DNA of 64,000 nucleotides from Rhizobium sp. WSM4643 (GTDB lineage Bacteria > Pseudomonadota > Alphaproteobacteria > Rhizobiales > Rhizobiaceae): positions 4,431,501-4,495,500 of the forward strand of contig NZ_CP104040.1 in NCBI RefSeq assembly GCF_025152745.1, written 5' to 3'. Of the stretch, positions 29,139-50,185 are shown piece by piece; the first letter of the stretch is position 1, and each line of letters opens with the position of its first letter. A program made the position numbers and the translations under genes. Below the pieces are notes generated by a model. The model was not told the DNA's origin and ran no database searches. It saw nothing but the letters and a program-made list of their open reading frames with translations.

Positions 29139-29649
29139 TATCGCTTGCAAGCTGGCCCGCAATGCCGGCATCGCCATGATCCTTGCCTCCGCGGCATTTC
29201 TCTCCGCCTGCCAGGTTCGTCCGCTCTACTCCGAGAGTTCCGGTGTTACTGAAAAGCTTTCCTCGGTCGGCTTTTCCCCAGCAGGTAGCCGCGTCGAACA
29301 ACAGGTTCGTAACCACTTGATTTTCCTATCGTCACGTGGAGCCGGCGAGCCGGAAAAACCGGAATATCTCGTCGAAATGCACGCCTCCTCGACCGTTGCC
29401 GACACGTTGCTGAGGGAATCCGGCGACACGTCGCGAGCCGGTCGTGTGACCGTCAGCGTCACCTACACGCTACGCGCGGCGACCGACAATCATGTCATCA
29501 AGGCCGGCAGCCGCGCGACCACGGCGCTGGTGGATTTCCCTGACCAGGAATTCGCCAAGCAGCGCGCAATCCGTGATGCCCAAAATCGTGCGGCAGATCA
29601 GGTAGCGGAATTCGTCGGGGCCGATATAGCCGCTGCCCTCAGCCGCTGA
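29128..29649 (+). CDS. lptE: LPS-assembly lipoprotein LptE
   Basis: 173 residues. A TTG start at 29128 lies within the leuS end (11-bp overlap), with AAAGG about 11 bases upstream. The N-terminal signal ends in the lipobox LSAC, so Cys28 or thereabouts is lipidated and the protein sits at the inner face of the outer membrane. The mature start [10 protein letters not shown] matches the RPLY motif of alphaproteobacterial LptE, which plugs the LptD barrel for lipopolysaccharide insertion. The rest is a small alpha/beta domain ([37 protein letters not shown]). The position between leuS and holA is conserved and supports the call. Confidence 0.88.
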
Positions 29650-29659
29650 GGGCGGAGAT

Positions 29660-30700
29660 GTGGCCGAGATAAAATCCCACGAATTCGAGACCTTCCTGCA
29701 GAAATCGGCACGGAACTATCGTATTTTCGTCATCTACGGGCCGGATCGCGGCCTTGTTTCCGAACGAGCAGGCTTGCTCGCCGGCAAGAGCGGTGTCGCG
29801 CTCGATGATCCCTTCTCGCTGACGAAACTCGATGTCGGCGACCTGCAGAAGGATCCCGGGCGATTGGTCGACGAGGTCCAGTCGATCGGCTTGTTCGGCG
29901 GTGAGAAACTGATCTGGATCCGCGGCGCCGCCAACGAGAAATACCTGGTCGAGTCCCTGGCACTGCTGGCCGAAAAACCACTCGAAGCCGCCTATCTGAT
30001 CGTCGAGGCCGGCGACCTGAAGAAGGGCTCGCCGCTGCGCAAGACCGCGGAAGCCGCGCGATCTGTCATGACGATCCCCTCCTACGCCGACGACAGCCGC
30101 GCCTTGAATGCCTTGATCGATACGGAGCTCGGCGCAGAGAAGCTCGGCATTACGCCGGCCGCGCGCCAGGCGCTGATCGCGTTGATCGGTGGCGATCGGA
30201 TCGCTTCGCGAAACGAGGTACGCAAGCTCGCGCTTTACTGCCGCGGCTTCGATACGGTCGAAGAACATCACGTTACCGAAATAATCGGCGACGCCAGCGC
30301 CATTTCGGTCGACGATGCCGTCGACGCCATTCTCGGCGGTGATCTCAGTGCATTTCTACATGCTATGCAAAAGATCAGCAGCTCGAAAACCGCGATCTTT
30401 CTGGTTCTGCAGGCATGCCTGAAACAATTCCAGCTTCTGGATTCGATGCGCGCCGAAATGGATGAAAGACGGCTGCAGCCGCCTCAAATCATGCAGACGA
30501 TGGGGCGGCATTTGCATTTCCGCCGCAAGCCGATCATCGAACAGGCGCTGCGACAATGGACCGCCGAAAGCATCGCTCGAGAATCCAACCGGCTGCAGGC
30601 AGCTATTTTGCAAAGCAGGCGGCGACAAGTGCTGGAGGACAGCGTTGCAATGCAAACGCTCCTATCCACCACCCTTCAATCCGGCCGGAAATCCGCCTGA
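29660..30700 (+). CDS. holA: DNA polymerase III delta subunit
   Basis: 346 residues; the clamp-loader delta subunit that opens the beta clamp. The N-terminal domain begins AEIKSHEFETFLQKSARNYRIFVIYGPDRGLVSERA, with the degenerate nucleotide-binding fold and no Walker A (IYGPDRG), as expected for delta, which does not hydrolyse ATP. The helical lid and collar domains follow (LIALIGGDRIASRNEVRKLALY; ISVDDAVDAILGGD). The GTG at 29660 has GGCGGAG immediately upstream. It is 10 bp after lptE and convergent with parB, with a palindrome between them. Confidence 0.93.
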   Translation: MAEIKSHEFETFLQKSARNYRIFVIYGPDRGLVSERAGLLAGKSGVALDDPFSLTKLDVGDLQKDPGRLVDEVQSIGLFGGEKLIWIRGAANEKYLVESLALLAEKPLEAAYLIVEAGDLKKGSPLRKTAEAARSVMTIPSYADDSRALNALIDTELGAEKLGITPAARQALIALIGGDRIASRNEVRKLALYCRGFDTVEEHHVTEIIGDASAISVDDAVDAILGGDLSAFLHAMQKISSSKTAIFLVLQACLKQFQLLDSMRAEMDERRLQPPQIMQTMGRHLHFRRKPIIEQALRQWTAESIARESNRLQAAILQSRRRQVLEDSVAMQTLLSTTLQSGRKSA

Positions 30701-30712
30701 CTAGCAAAGAGT

Positions 30713-30755
30713 GAGAGCGTCCTTTGTGTACCTATAGGGACGCACGACGCTTTAA
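30713..30755. repeat. Rhizobium-type palindromic repeat, family B, copy 1
   Basis: GAGAGCGTCCTTTGTG through GGGACGCACGACGCTTT is an inverted repeat between the convergent holA and parB stops. It resembles the element at 56285-56324 (AGAGCGTCCTT, then GGACGC and CGCT). It may act as a bidirectional terminator; its right arm overlaps the parB stop. Confidence 0.6.
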
Positions 30756-31633
30756 CGCCTCTCGAGCAAGCGGCAGACTTCCTCGAGCTGCTCCAGTGAC
30801 TTATAGGAAATTTTGATCTGACCGCCGCTTGATTTGTGATTGATCGCAACATCAAGGCCGAGTGCATCGGAAAGTGTCCGTTCCAGCGCCAGCGTGTCGG
30901 AATCCTTCTGATCTCGCCGCAAGGCCGGCTGCTGTGGTTCCGATTGGGCCTTGATATTGTTTTGTGCGAGCTTTTCCGCATCACGCACCGACATGCCCTT
31001 GGCAACAATCGTACGGGCAAGACCTGCTGGGTCAGATGTCGAAACCAATGCGCGCGCGTGCCCGGCCGATAGGCTGCCGGCGGCAAGCAGATCGCGAACC
31101 GGATCCGGCAGCTTCAGCAAGCGCAAGGAATTGGCAACGTGGCTGCGGCTTTTACCAATGATTTCCCCAAGGTCGTTCTGAGTGTAACCATATTCCGCAA
31201 TAAGCTGCTCATAACCCAACGCCTCTTCGAGGGCATTGAGATCCGCGCGCTGCACGTTTTCGACAATGGCGATTTCCAGCGCCGTCTTGTCATCCACATC
31301 ACGGACAATGACAGGAATCTCGATCAGCCCGGCAAGCTGAGCTGCGCGCCAACGTCGCTCGCCGGCGATGATTTCATATCGATCCCGCGACATCGTCCGC
31401 ACAACAATCGGCTGAACGATACCATGTTGACGAATCGAACTTGCGAGATCGTGGAGCTCTGTGTCATCGAAGAAACGACGAGGGTTACGAGGGTTACGGC
31501 TGACGAACTCGATCGGGATCATTCTGTCGGCACTGATAGTCCGCTCGGCTTCCACCGGGACAGGCTGATCCATCTCACCAATCAGCGCCGCAAGGCCGCG
31601 GCCCAATCGCCTCTTCGATACATCGTCATTCAT
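30752..31633 (-). CDS. parB: Chromosome-partitioning protein ParB
   Basis: 293 residues. The N-terminal CTP-binding region has the box motifs GIVQPIVVR, ITGERRWRAA-like AGERRWRAAQLAG and ENVQRADLNALEEA. The helix-turn-helix YTQNDLGEIIGKSRSHVANSLRLLKLP recognises parS. A linker is followed by a C-terminal dimerisation domain with VAINHKSSGGQIKISYKSLEQLEEV. ParB loads at parS sites, slides as a CTP clamp, and recruits ParA and condensin. Three or four parS-like palindromes lie nearby (33062, 35020, 35055, 41392). It is 32 bp downstream of parA, last in the run mnmE-mnmG-rsmG-parA-parB. Confidence 0.97.
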   Translation of the reverse strand: MNDDVSKRRLGRGLAALIGEMDQPVPVEAERTISADRMIPIEFVSRNPRNPRRFFDDTELHDLASSIRQHGIVQPIVVRTMSRDRYEIIAGERRWRAAQLAGLIEIPVIVRDVDDKTALEIAIVENVQRADLNALEEALGYEQLIAEYGYTQNDLGEIIGKSRSHVANSLRLLKLPDPVRDLLAAGSLSAGHARALVSTSDPAGLARTIVAKGMSVRDAEKLAQNNIKAQSEPQQPALRRDQKDSDTLALERTLSDALGLDVAINHKSSGGQIKISYKSLEQLEEVCRLLERR

Positions 31634-31665: not shown

Positions 31666-32460
31666 TTACGCGGCCAGTCTTTGCCGCTCCCGTTGGATGA
31701 CCTCGGAGGCCAGCTGCAGGTAGGCTTGGCTGCCCGCGCACTTCAAATCATAGAGAATAGCCGGCTTGCCGTAGGACGGCGCCTCGGAAACCCGGACGTT
31801 GCGCGGAATCAACGTGTGGTAAACCTTTTCTCCGAGATGCGTGCGCACGTCATTGACCACCTGCTGGGCAAGATTGTTGCGCGCATCGAACATCGTCAAG
31901 ACGATCCCTTGAATATCCAGACGCGGATTAACCGTTCGCCGGACCTGGCTGACGGTCTCAAGCAGCTGGCTCAATCCCTCCAGCGCAAAGAATTCACATT
32001 GCAATGGCACCAAAACCGAATGCGCCGCCGCCATGGCATTCATCGTCAGCAGATTGAACGACGGTGGGCAGTCCAGAAGAATATAGGAAAATGCCATGGC
32101 TTCGGGCGAAGACAAGGCTTTCCGCAATTTGAAGACCCGATCGCTTTGCTGCGAGATCTCCATCTCGATGCCAAGCAAATCCATCGTCGACGGGACGATA
32201 AAGAGATTCGGAACCGCCGTCTCGAGAGTCACTTCGGGGATGCCCCGATCTCCAACCATCAGATCGTAGGAGGAGAGTTTGCGATCACGACGATCGATAC
32301 CAAGGCCGGTGCTGGCATTACCCTGCGGGTCGAGATCGACGATCAAGACGCGCTCGCCAATGGCAGCAAGCGCTGTTGCCAGATTGATTGCTGTGGTCGT
32401 CTTGCCAACGCCACCCTTCTGATTTGCGATGGTGATAATCCGATGTCGTTCGCCAGCCAT
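31666..32460 (-). CDS. parA: Chromosome-partitioning ATPase ParA/Soj
   Basis: 264 residues, small ParA type without an N-terminal HTH. The deviant Walker A KGGVGKTTTAINLATALA carries the signature lysine, with the A' motif VLIVDLDPQGNASTGLG and Walker B YILLDCPPSFNLLTMNA. The dynamic ATP-dependent nucleoid-bound dimer pulls ParB-parS complexes towards the poles. Start MAGERHRIITIANQKGG. It lies 19 bp after rsmG and 32 bp before parB, the standard arrangement in rhizobial chromosomes (as distinct from the repABC type of plasmids). Confidence 0.97.
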   Translation of the reverse strand: MAGERHRIITIANQKGGVGKTTTAINLATALAAIGERVLIVDLDPQGNASTGLGIDRRDRKLSSYDLMVGDRGIPEVTLETAVPNLFIVPSTMDLLGIEMEISQQSDRVFKLRKALSSPEAMAFSYILLDCPPSFNLLTMNAMAAAHSVLVPLQCEFFALEGLSQLLETVSQVRRTVNPRLDIQGIVLTMFDARNNLAQQVVNDVRTHLGEKVYHTLIPRNVRVSEAPSYGKPAILYDLKCAGSQAYLQLASEVIQRERQRLAA

Positions 32461-32479: not shown

Positions 32480-33097
32480 TTAAACCAAGCGCCGGAGATT
32501 TGATACTTCTAAAATAACAGATTCCTGCCCGACGGCGCTCTTATGTTCTACCAGATCGAATTCCCACCGACCACGTGCTTTGACGATTTCCTTCCGGTAA
32601 TCCCGGCCTTTATGAAAAAAGCCACGACAATATTCCTTGCCAAGCATCCAAGGGGCCGAATATCCGATGAGCCCATCAAGATCGGTAAGCGCACGCGCTG
32701 AAATCGCACCGCATTCGCCAACCACCGGATAAGCATCTTCGATTCGAATGCTATGCACGCTGCCGCGCGCATTTGTCTCCCGCAGCGCCGTGCGCAGAAA
32801 CGCTGCCTTCTTATGGCTGCTTTCGACCAGATGGACCCATCCACCTTGCAGCTCGGCCAGAAGAATTGCGGTAATAACGCCGGGAAAGCCACCTCCGCTA
32901 CCGAGGTCAACCCAGGTAACAGGCTGCGGATGAATCTGAAAGATTTGGCTGCTATCGGCGATGTGCCGGTGCCAAAGGTCATCGAGTGTCGACGGCGCCA
33001 CCAGATTAATTGCTTTCGCCCACTTCTGAAACAGCGCGGCAAAGTGTTGCAGCCGTTCCTGTGTTTCACGTGAAACACGCAAACCGTTTAATTCCAT
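32480..33097 (-). CDS. rsmG: 16S rRNA (guanine-N7)-methyltransferase RsmG
   Basis: 205 residues, formerly GidB. It methylates G527 of 16S rRNA with SAM. The SAM motif [13 protein letters not shown] and the following [15 protein letters not shown] are canonical, with [19 protein letters not shown] in the second half. Codons 7-13 (RVSRETQ) contain a perfect parS site (33062-33077), so this coding segment has a second role as a ParB loading site. The start at 33097 is 12 bp after the mnmG stop. Confidence 0.96.
33062..33077. promoter_or_regulatory. parS site 1, perfect
   Basis: TGTTTCACGTGAAACA, the complete 16-bp ParB-binding palindrome, located inside the rsmG coding region about 20-35 bp after its start codon. 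Confidence 0.95.
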
Positions 33098-35019: not shown

Positions 35020-35033
35020 GTTTCACGTGAAAC
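35020..35033. promoter_or_regulatory. parS site 2
   Basis: GTTTCACGTGAAAC, a perfect 14-bp core with non-consensus flanking bases, in the mnmE-mnmG gap. Confidence 0.85.
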
Positions 35034-37951: not shown

Positions 37952-38494
37952 TCAGAACGGCTTCACCACGGCGAGGATGACGATCACGACCATCAGCACC
38001 GTCGGCGCCTCGTTCATGAACCGCCAATAACGCGCCGAGCGGCGATTTTCATCCCGCTCGAACGCTCTGACGGCGCGGCTGAAGAACATATGAACGCCGG
38101 TCAGCAACACGACGAGACCGATCTTGGCATGCAGCCAGCCGCCGTGGAATCCATAGACCGACCAGGCGAGATAGAGGCCGAAAATCCACGTCATCATCAT
38201 TGCCGGCGTCATGATGATTCGAAGCAGCCGACGCTCCATCAGCTTGAAGGTTTCCGATTGCACCGAGCCGGGCTCCGCATCGGTGTGATAGATGAACAGC
38301 CGCGGCATATAGAACAGTCCGGCCATCCAGGAAATGACCGCGATGATGTGCAGCGCCTTGATCCAGAGGTAGAGATTATCGGGGTTCCACGCAAAAAGCC
38401 CGACCGCCATCAGCGCGAAGAAGGCCAGCGCAAAATGAGCCCGGCGCCTGGCGTAGGCGCCAGACCTCCGATCGGTCTGTTTTTCCATCGTCAC
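37952..38494 (-). CDS. hemJ: Protoporphyrinogen oxidase HemJ
   Basis: 180 residues with four membrane helices (about 23-43, 55-75, 92-115, 155-178). It oxidises protoporphyrinogen IX to protoporphyrin IX in organisms without HemY/HemG. The conserved [22 protein letters not shown] holds the essential histidine and WMAG motif, and [27 protein letters not shown] are typical. Its GTG start at 38494 overlaps the hemE stop (GTGA), so the two heme genes are translationally coupled. A direct ATG at 38488 is an alternative start. A CTGAGGA/TCCTCAG hairpin overlaps its stop codon. Confidence 0.9.
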
Positions 38495-39537
38495 GCCCCA
38501 CCTCGCACGCGCCCGCCTCGCACCTGATCGACCAGCAGCCGCACATGCTCGGGGTCAGCCTGCGGCGTAATGCCGTGACCGAGATTGAAGATCAGCGGTC
38601 CATTGCCGAGATGCTGCAATATATCGTCGACGCCCTCTTCCAGCGCCCGGCCGCCGGCAACGACGCGCATCGGATCGAGATTGCCCTGAACCGGTCCGTC
38701 TTTCTGAAGTTCGGCGGCAAACGCCAGCGGGACCGACCAGTCGAGGCCGATCGCATCAGCACCCGTCTTCTGACGATAGGTTTTCAGCTGGTAGCCGGCG
38801 CCCTTGGCAAAAGCGATGATGCGAGCATGCGGCCGGCGCGACTTGACCGAAGCAATCATCCGCGCAACCGGCCTGATCGCAAACGCCTCGAACTCCTTTT
38901 CGCCGAGAACGCCAGCCCAGGAATCGAAAATCTGCACGGCATCGGCGCCGGCATCGATCTGGGCGACGAGATAATCGGCCGATACGTCGGCAAGCAGCAT
39001 CAGCAGATGCTCGAACGCGCGGGGGTGCCCGTAGGCGAAGAGGCGCGCAGGGGCCTGATCCGGCGTGCCGTGCCCGGCAATCATGTAGGTCGCAACCGTC
39101 CAGGGCGCGCCGCAGAAGCCGAGCAGCGTCGTCTCGACTGGCAACTCCTCCCGCAGCCGCCGCACCGTCTCCAGAACCGGTCTGAGATAATCGACAACCT
39201 CTTCGCCATTCAATCTGCCGATCCCGGCTTCATCGATCGGATCCATCTCCGGGCCATGGCCCTCGGTGAACCGGACATTCCGTTTCATTGCATCGGGAAT
39301 GACCAGGATATCGGAAAACAGTATGGCCGCATCAAAGCCATAGCGGCGGATCGGCTGCAATGTCACTTCGACGGCGTGCTCAGGCGTGTAGCAGAGATCG
39401 AGAAAACTCCCTGCCTTTGCCCGAGTCTCCCGATATTCCGGGAGATAACGTCCTGCCTGTCTCATCAGCCAGAGAGGAGGAGGGGAGAGGCTCTCGCCAC
39501 TCAAAACCCTCATGATCTTTCGGCGCGTATCGCTCAA
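38491..39537 (-). CDS. hemE: Uroporphyrinogen decarboxylase
   Basis: 348 residues. It converts uroporphyrinogen III to coproporphyrinogen III, a cytoplasmic heme-synthesis step. [23 protein letters not shown] is the N-terminal signature with the catalytic-site arginines, followed by [18 protein letters not shown] (Asp) and [14 protein letters not shown]. The chosen start is TTG 39537 with GGAAGAAG upstream, which gives the [16 protein letters not shown] N-terminus seen in relatives; ATG 39513 would be 8 residues shorter. Next to oriC, as in Caulobacter and rhizobia, and coupled to hemJ. Confidence 0.96.
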
Positions 39538-39938
39538 GCGCTTCTTCCCTATAAAAAATCAAAGATATTTTAAAAGGTTTCTATTTCTTAGAGTCGGTGA
39601 CTATCAAGGATTAAAATCCATCCACTGCCGTCGCCATTTGTCGCGCGCCTGCAAAACAACATCGGAAAGATTTGTCCTTCTCGACCGAATCTCGGGGAGA
39701 AGCCAAATCTAAAAATGATTTCAAATCCTTCCGGGTCGGCAATTTTTCCTATAGCTGTGGATAGGCTGTGGACCGGCTTTCGAGAAATAGATCTCTTCCC
39801 CATCGTCCACAGGGCCAATCAAAACCGACCCGCAAAATCCGAAATGTGGATAAGGAGGCATGTTTTCCCTTGCCGGAGACTGCCTCGCCGCCGTAGCTCT
39901 GTTTCATCCAGTCTTTTCAACAGGCAGCGGAAAATAGC
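39538..39938. other. oriC: Chromosomal replication origin, oriC
   Basis: 401 bp without a gene between hemE and the PPDK regulator. It holds a perfect DnaA box TGTGGATAA (39845-39853, reverse TTATCCACA), a one-mismatch box TGTGGATAG (39756-39764), and two weaker ones TGTGGACCG (39767-39775) and TCGTCCACA (39803-39811). An AT-rich block (39549-39625, ATAAAAAATC, AGATATTTTAAAAGG) may be the unwinding element. GANTC methylation sites occur at 39591, 39687, 39981 and 39995, the last two just inside the next gene. Genes on both sides are transcribed away from it. The position beside hemE agrees with the rhizobial and Caulobacter origins. Confidence 0.88.
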
Positions 39939-40760
39939 GTGGAGAACAGAACGAACTTCTTCCATCTGCATCTGATTTCTGACTCAACGGGAGAGACTCT
40001 GATCTCGGCCGGGCGCGCCGCGTCGGCGCAATTCAGATCAGCGCAGCCGATCGAACATGTCTATCCGTTGATCCGCAATCGCAAGCAGCTGCTGCCGGTT
40101 CTGCAGGCGATCGATGACGCCCCTGGCATCGTGCTCTACACCATTGTCGACCGGGAGCTTGCAAGCCTGATCGATGAGCGTTGCATCGAGATGGGCGTCG
40201 CCTCGGTGAATGTGCTGGAGCCGGTGATGAATGCCTTCCAGATCTATCTCGGCGCTCCGTCGCGCCGTCGGGTTGGGGCCCAGCATGTGATGAATGCCGG
40301 CTACTTCGCGCGCATCGAAGCGCTGAATTTCACCATGGATCACGACGACGGCCAGATGCCCGACGATTACAACGACGCCGATGTCGTGATCATCGGCATC
40401 AGCCGCACGTCGAAAACACCGACCAGCATTTACCTCGCCAACCGAGGCATCAAGACGGCGAACATTCCGATCGTCTATGGTGTGCCATTGCCGGAGAGCC
40501 TCTTCGTCGCGAGCAAACCGCTGATCGTCTGCCTGATCGCCACCACCGACCGTATTTCCCAGGTGCGGGAAAATCGTGTGCTCGGCGTGACACAGGGCTT
40601 CGATCGCGAACATTATACCGACCGTGCCGCGATTTCGGAGGAGTTGAAATATGCCCGCTCGCTTTGCGCCCGCCATAACTGGCCGCTGATCGACGTCACC
40701 CGCCGCTCAATCGAGGAAACGGCCGCGGCAATCGTTGCCCTGCGGCCGAAGCTGCGCTAA
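39939..40760 (+). CDS. Pyruvate, phosphate dikinase regulatory protein (DUF299)
   Basis: 273 residues. The bifunctional kinase/pyrophosphorylase family regulates pyruvate phosphate dikinase or PEP synthase by ADP-dependent phosphorylation. [13 protein letters not shown] begins the family, and the nucleotide-binding loop [18 protein letters not shown] (about residues 150-167) is characteristic. [16 protein letters not shown] leads into it and [29 protein letters not shown] closes the protein. The GTG at 39939 follows CGGAAAATAGC. It is the first gene of the right arm from oriC and may share its transcript with maf (33-bp gap). Confidence 0.93.
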
Positions 40761-43636: not shown

Positions 43637-44119
43637 TCAGTTCGGAACGGCCTGAACCTTGGCGCGGGCCTGTTCTTCGGCAACGCGCTGAGCGAACATC
43701 TGCGTGAAGTCGATCGGGTCGATCATCAGCGGCGGGAAACCGCCGTTGCGGGTGACGTCGGCGATGATCTGACGAGCGAAGGGGAAGAGCATCCGCGGGC
43801 ACTCGATGAAGAGAACCGGCAGCATGTGTTCCTGCGGGAAACCGGCAACGCGGAAAACGCCGCCATAGGTGAGTTCGGCATGGAAAACCGTCTTGTCGCC
43901 GTCCTTGGCTTCGGCATTCAGCGACAGCACGACATCGAAATCCGTATCGGAAAGCGGGTTGGCGTTGACGTTCACATTGATGTTGATCGTAGGCGCCTTG
44001 TCGCGGGCCTGCAGCGAACGCGGCGCACCCGGATTTTCGAAGGACAGATCCTTGGTATATTGCGCAAGGATCGAAAGGGTGGGGCTGGCCGCACCGTTGC
44101 TGTTGTTATCGTCTGCCAT
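43637..44119 (-). CDS. secB: Protein-export chaperone SecB
   Basis: 160 residues from ATG 44119 with GAGGAAAAG upstream; the frame extends further but homologues start MADDN. It keeps precursors unfolded and delivers them to Sec[25 protein letters not shown] is the N-terminal motif, [23 protein letters not shown] and [38 protein letters not shown] the conserved core of the tetramer. The acidic C-terminal tail of enterobacterial SecB is replaced by a basic stretch. It is convergent with dnaQ. Confidence 0.97.

Positions 44120-47614: not shown

Positions 47615-50185
<2,571 letters not shown>

Follow-up and report, generated by a model that had tools for sequence, protein, structure and literature searches.

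A conserved block beside hemE as the probable unwinding module of a Rhizobium chromosomal replication origin

The gap between hemE and the PPSR gene of Rhizobium sp. WSM4643 is almost certainly oriC of the 4.86-Mb chromosome, and its hemE-proximal segment at 39550-39614 is probably a diverged form of an origin unwinding module, as judged by sequence comparison among relatives. The origin is an ordinary one of the known hemE/COG1806 type, and it is the proposed diverged unwinding module with its invariant methylation site that is the apparently new part. These features are described within a 64,000 bp stretch of DNA (the window), which corresponds to C1 4431501-4495500; C1 is 4,855,628 bp long in a genome of 6.44 Mb in four contigs, and Rhizobium leguminosarum is the closest named relative among the matches listed for HemE (98%). 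Coordinates are those of the window except where C1 or chromosomal positions are given.

The gap (39538-39938) is bounded on the left by hemE (38491-39537, minus strand; TIGR01464, 404 bits) and on the right by the PPSR gene (COG1806, DUF299; 39939-40760, plus strand; NF003742, 332 bits). Its length is 401 bp, as given in the preliminary description, if hemE starts at the TTG at 39537, but 425 bp (39514-39938) if the in-frame ATG at 39513 is used; it had also been called the longest gap in the window, and a crude and unreliable ORF-coverage script reports three longer uncovered stretches. The gap is 394-420 bp long across 63 relatives, and its G+C content is 0.466 as against 0.602 for the window. 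Family profiles identify hemE, hemJ, rho, mnmE, mnmG, rsmG, parA and parB to the left, all on the minus strand. The rsmG score is slightly below the family cut-off, parA (31666-32460) matches ParA-type families (best TIGR03453) below cut-off, and parB (30752-31633) matches NCBIfam TIGR00180 above it. PPSR is followed on the plus strand by maf, aroE, coaE and an exonuclease gene, and gyrB is at 47636-50185. The reported divergence of genes from the gap thus holds from parB to hemE and from PPSR to the exonuclease gene, but secB at 43637 is again on the minus strand. Beside parB, at 29639-30700, there are overlapping open reading frames on both strands, among them one of 210 aa (minus) and one of 346 aa (plus), with no family match for the former in NCBIfam or for the latter in Pfam.

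The gap is assigned as oriC because of the parS sites, the keto skew, the polarity of the octamer GGGCAGGG and the retained hemE-PPSR gene order, together with the published Caulobacter origin, Cori, which according to the available text of PMC1914354 sits between hemE and COG1806. The clustered parS sites noted earlier were recovered as exact copies of GTTTCACGTGAAAC at 33063-33076 and 35020-35033, and these are the only two in the genome. The cumulative keto excess is lowest in the stretch starting at 4,430,761 when 80 evenly spaced 20-kb stretches of C1 are used, and at 4.48-4.50 Mb in a nearly contiguous 1.36 Mb around the candidates, read every 20 kb. GGGCAGGG is the most strand-biased octamer of the chromosome arms (89 to 4); with an origin at 4.471 Mb and an antipodal terminus at 2.043 Mb it has the leading sense at 138 of 152 sampled sites, and the best origin and terminus pair tried (4.40-4.44 and 2.02-2.06 Mb) accounts for 140 of the 152. 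A switch in strand composition with an opposite terminus is therefore seen in the keto skew and the GGGCAGGG polarity but not in plain GC skew. The GC-skew minimum that had been anticipated at the gap lies instead at 4.67 Mb in the sampled stretches and at 0.59 Mb in the nearly contiguous 1.36 Mb. Gene order is kept throughout the order: in a survey of 30 genomes hemE was found in 27, PPSR is beside it in 23 of these 27 loci, and rho is behind it in most. Overall, the reading of this gap as a replication origin stands well supported.

An origin at dnaA (C1:124, about 385 kb from the gap) is very unlikely. It draws on the noise of plain GC skew, on sets of 60 or 200 octamers, which count against the gap with minima at 42 or 81 kb, and on the running count of GGGCAGGG from position 1, whose minimum is at 40 kb; however, the parS pair and the keto minimum are at the hemE gap, the best origin and terminus fit is that given above, and the position of Cori between hemE and COG1806 (PMC1914354, as far as its text is available) is also against it. 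Unsupervised tetramer and hexamer skew gave change points at 0.36 and 2.00 Mb, and was set aside as probably driven by gene orientation.

Three further observations concern the chromosome and its relatives. The polarity of GGGCAGGG along the C1 arms is strong and is likened to that of GGGNAGGG, the FtsK-orienting octamer of E. coli; plain GC skew, by contrast, is too faint to locate the origin. Along C1 there are also recurring small clusters of GGGNAGGG, with both orientations present within about 150 bp (4257293-4257456, 4356804-4356938, 82814-82943, 498426-498556 and similar), which look like a dispersed palindromic repeat carrying polar octamers. One genome of the order (G035, locus L258) has hemE without PPSR in the locus, without the conserved block described below and without a nearby GANTC, and judging from this arrangement the origin may have left hemE there.

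All four DnaA-like sites of the preliminary description are real, one perfect and three with mismatches. These are TGTGGATAG at 39756-39764 (minus strand, one mismatch; mean identity among relatives 0.783), the weak box TGTGGACCG at 39767-39775 (minus, three mismatches; 0.639), the weak box TCGTCCACA at 39803-39811 (plus, two mismatches; 0.643 over 39804-39812) and the perfect box TGTGGATAA, or TTATCCACA, at 39845-39853 (minus; 0.931, with seven of nine columns invariant). The site at 39767 is often a better DnaA box in relatives, as the consensus row of the alignment shows, and a fifth conserved box-like site, TTTTCAACA at 39914-39922 (plus; 0.776 over 39913-39921), was absent from the earlier list. 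The box cluster had been offered as a mark of the origin, but by itself it does not prove one. When the motif TTWTNCACA with at most one mismatch is scanned in 150-bp windows over 2.49 Mb sampled from this chromosome, another six places do as well or better, and DnaA-box density as an origin finder would not pick out the gap. The window as a whole contains 27 sites that match TTWTCCACA with no more than one mismatch, compared with 11.8 in shuffles and 15.1 per 64 kb in the chromosome sample; this count is reached in 7 of 74 chromosome bins and may reflect chance or a mild origin-proximal excess.

The AT-rich block previously noted at the hemE end of the gap is present, and it contains the least stable DNA of the window. 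The 40 bp at 39550-39589, the proposed DNA unwinding element, are the weakest 40-mer of the 64 kb by nearest-neighbour dG (-40.3, the next place being -45.7), and only 41 of 2,487,492 40-mers in the chromosome sample are as weak. The weakest 40-mer in the 400 bp upstream of hemE is hemE-proximal in 60 of 65 relatives.

Abutting this unstable DNA is a conserved block at 39576-39614 (plus strand), the rest of the proposed unwinding module, made up of a tract rich in T, a GANTC site and two degenerate box-like elements. The gap was aligned in 64 sequences. These comprise the window together with 63 loci from the set of 65 at L010-L074, the remaining two having been dropped as PPSR was not found in them, and removal of near-duplicates left 61. 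In these 61 sequences the mean identity over 39578-39613 is 0.932 and 15 of 36 columns are invariant, such that this non-coding block is as conserved as the perfect DnaA box (0.93) and four times longer. The first box-like element, GGTGACTAT at 39596-39604 (plus), differs from TGTGGATAA at four positions; it reads GGTGGATAG in the Rhizobiaceae locus L246 and is GGTGGATTA-like in other families, and it is the part of the sequence profile described below with the most hits across families. The second half of the pair, CAAGGATTAA at 39605-39614 (plus), is likewise conserved in the alignment and in profile hits. The strong DnaA boxes are about 140 bp or more from the block, a point against the module reading, across a spacer (39626-39749, 124 bp) that has an identity of only 0.395 but whose length is held within a few bases in most aligned relatives. 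From the GANTC at 39591 to the box at 39845 the distance is 253-258 bp in 51 of 54 scored rows, ten rows with a variant box being left out. These distances are spread evenly over 253-258 bp, which indicates a length limit with no helical phase, and helical phasing between the block and the far box was rejected for this reason.

The block is also a specific mark of this locus. Its 37-mer, with up to three mismatches, is single copy in its own genome and was found in 9 of 397 genomes of the order. The degenerate 20-mer TTYTNNTTCTNNGASTCNGT is present in 26 of the 397, comprising 22 of 25 genomes of the same family and 4 of 372 others, and a reversed control of the pattern matches in 7 genomes. 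TTYTNNTTCTNNGASTCNGT marks the origin within the family, in that all 22 family matches adjoin hemE and have PPSR within one 3-kb locus, which is true of none of the four others. Two of the three family genomes without a match are 1.5-1.6 Mb genomes with no hemE match, and the third (L246) has a related block. Two Agrobacterium loci (L052 and L063) carry the block, A. tumefaciens itself being outside the sample. We found no description of the block or its GANTC in the open-access PMC literature, in so far as its text was available, and an earlier description is possible.

A more uneven pattern is seen with the sites of GANTC, the sequence that CcrM methylates (PMC8116508, in the part available). 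The four sites listed earlier are all present, at 39591, 39687, 39981 and 39995, but they are not equivalent. The GAGTC at 39591-39595 is conserved in 64 of 64 aligned rows, whereas that at 39687 is present in one of 64, the window itself being the sole carrier; the other two are inside the PPSR gene. Taking the best core match per locus (with up to 19 of 44 mismatches in the most distant), the site at 39591 is present in 80 of 80 relatives, 18 of which carry another GANTC 8 bp further left. The conservation extends to other families of the order, with a GANTC 10-80 bp from hemE in 21 of 23 PPSR-adjacent genomes, and in 6, 9, 9 and 8 of the same 23 in the next four 70-bp windows. Among all 256 words of the form abNcd, GANTC is the commonest within the 70 bp that adjoin hemE in these 23 genomes. 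Its N can be any base (T12, A12, G7, C4), an indication that it is GANTC itself that is kept. The origin thus contains a conserved methylation site, as is expected of a methylation-gated origin. In the sampled genomes of other orders there is no such excess near hemE (10 of 21, compared with 10, 8, 6 and 8 in the next windows), nor does a GANTC 10-80 bp from hemE track the presence of GcrA there, being found in 4 of the 8 genomes that lack a GcrA match and in 9 of the 21 that have such a match.

The comparison was widened to the rest of the class. A survey with each family represented by a single genome covered 45 genomes, of which 39 had hemE; it gave 30 loci, our own and 29 others, many of which have trinucleotide repeats followed by a DnaA box beside hemE (for example GGAAGTAGAGGTAGTGGATGCCTGTGGATAACGG in L277). 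Such an arrangement of a trinucleotide tract and a DnaA box is the basal unwinding system of PMC8287927, as set out in the available portion. T[AGT]G triplets, a class chosen after the sequences had been looked at, occur as at least three of five consecutive triplets at up to 140 bp in 12 of 21 PPSR-adjacent genomes of the class and in 0 of 21 on the other strand; further out they are found in 3 of 21 and 1 of 21, and in shuffles at 11%. The signal is weaker within the order (6 of 23, vs 2 of 23), where the tract is often TTG-rich or T-rich and the box is like GGTGGATTA; Rhizobium has TTTCTATTTCTTA as its tract and GGTGACTAT as its box. The window and 80 relatives were used to build a profile, which was searched against 56 upstream regions and 56 reversed copies of these. 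At E<1 it yields ten hits, every one of them on the expected strand, and the first reversed decoy has an E of 5.4. Eight of the hits are 36-129 bp from hemE, with L275 at 151 and L296 at 379 bp, and most rest on the box and the GGATT half. When iterated, in rounds that include its own training sequences, the profile gives 22 hits at E<=1 with 20 on the expected strand and no decoy. Judging from these similarities, the block is probably derived from the trio-plus-DnaA-box module located at the same place in other alphaproteobacteria, with both the trio and the box parts having diverged in the Rhizobiaceae past the published search rule. The single-box part of that rule, coded as at least three NAN triplets within 16 bp of a DnaA box with at most two mismatches, makes no call in the window gap, and in 2 of the 65 relatives its strongest call falls near hemE. 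The available text of PMC8287927 itself suspects that there are deviant trios without the middle adenine. Although the block is outside the published definition of a basal unwinding system, and is a place where the published rule comes up empty, it probably functions like a member.

Two other readings of the block must be weighed against that of an unwinding module. It could be a promoter or leader of hemE, for example one regulated by GcrA and CcrM with the GANTC between the -35 and -10 elements, that is beside oriC by chance, and this we regard as improbable. The block is directly upstream of hemE, GcrA favours promoters with methylated GANTC (PMC8116508, in the sections available), and the minus strand can be read as TTGATA-N17-ATAGAA with TTGATA as the -35. 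There is however no sigma-70-like site in 39400-40000, and TATCAA, the source of TTGATA, is replaced by TAGCAA in L051-L053 and missing from L075-L079, even though TTAGAGTC persists. In S. meliloti the oriC region was used as a negative control and no transcription was seen, according to an excerpt of PMC2245857. A transcript of a different kind, an origin RNA like CcnA, was also considered and discarded, as no Rfam match at gathering score is present in the window and no transcript is reported in S. meliloti (PMC8959179, in the available part).

There is even less reason to see the block as mainly a place where a DNA-bending or nucleoid protein, for instance IHF, binds and aids DnaA while the strands open elsewhere in the gap. 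The IHF consensus is WATCARNNNNTTR, and TATCAAGGATTAA in the block is one mismatch from it; moreover, IHF acts at both Cori and E. coli oriC (PMC4285127, in the text available). But the ATCAA part of this match is lost in L051-L053 and L075-L079 though the block remains, and an IHF site would not require that the T-tract and GAGTC be retained.

For the unwinding module, the mechanism that we infer in regard to protein contacts, strand opening and methylation involves two origin ends at a nearly fixed distance, the DnaA-box array at 39756-39922 and the module at 39550-39614, in which a T-rich tract, a GANTC and a degenerate pair resembling DnaA boxes are combined with a stretch of very high AT content. 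What the sequences themselves establish is the position, conservation, instability, spacing and single copy of the block, and the occurrence of GANTC across the order. DnaA would collect on the array and be brought to the block across the fixed length, and there touch the weak pair of boxes and spread along the T-rich strand such that 39550-39589 opens; helicase loading would follow. After firing, the GANTC would be hemi-methylated until CcrM acts, and this could delay a second opening.

The role of methylation is the more tentative part of this scheme. The simplest reading of the invariant GANTC is a CcrM mark in the proposed melting element, by which a newly fired origin would have a hemi-methylated opener; that it is functional in this way is possible but doubtful. 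The CcrM-controlled firing proposed in the preliminary description is favoured by one conserved site rather than four, and set against it is the report that depletion or overexpression of CcrM gave no significant change in ori1 in A. tumefaciens (PMC11514494, in the portion available). A more general version, in which oriC throughout the order has a melting element with a near-obligatory CcrM site, a diverged and T-rich trio-plus-box, and hemi-methylation after firing marks or silences the opener, is rather unlikely. If true, it would offer a candidate reason for the essentiality of CcrM in the Rhizobiales, which the available text of PMC3708114 gives as unexplained, a part in regulating DNA replication having been proposed, and where the origin that has been studied, that of S. 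meliloti, is not bound by CtrA (PMC4433202, in the part available). The presence of one invariant GANTC in the part of oriC that melts most easily and is best conserved reduces the question of timing to a test of a single site, and bears on how rhizobial origins open and are timed.

Comparison with named origins shows both shared and distinct features. The S. meliloti oriC is reportedly at hemE, as placed by Sibley et al. in 2006. Like Caulobacter Cori and other alphaproteobacterial hemE/COG1806 origins, as these are described in the available text of PMC1914354, the Rhizobium gap is located between hemE and COG1806, has DnaA boxes with parAB nearby, and carries its AT-rich region on the hemE side. 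The conserved block has no mention in that text, and Cori differs in being defined by CtrA sites, which contrasts with the S. meliloti oriC (PMC4433202, as above). The block resembles the basal unwinding system in having a repeat-like tract on one strand and a box-like element by the least stable DNA, and the profile ties it to the trio-plus-box sequences of other alphaproteobacteria; it is unlike that system in that nowhere in the gap do three NAN triplets in a row stand next to a box of two mismatches or fewer.

With the origin of E. coli the likeness is one of working only. The block and the E. coli 13-mers (TTAGAG-TCTGTT vs TTAGAGATCTGTT) look homologous by eye, but their similarity is not above shuffles. 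Two kinds of shuffle, 1000 each, reach the score 106 and 90 times for the window, 55 and 60 for L076, 77 and 177 for L074, 494 and 393 for L080, and 446 and 485 for L084. In E. coli a methylation site is located among the melting repeats, on the mnmG side, with a box in the TGTGGATAA orientation (L273), and the site is the GATC of Dam where that of the Rhizobium block is GANTC. If the methylation reading is true, the Rhizobium origin would be a GANTC counterpart of the Dam-marked origin of E. coli.
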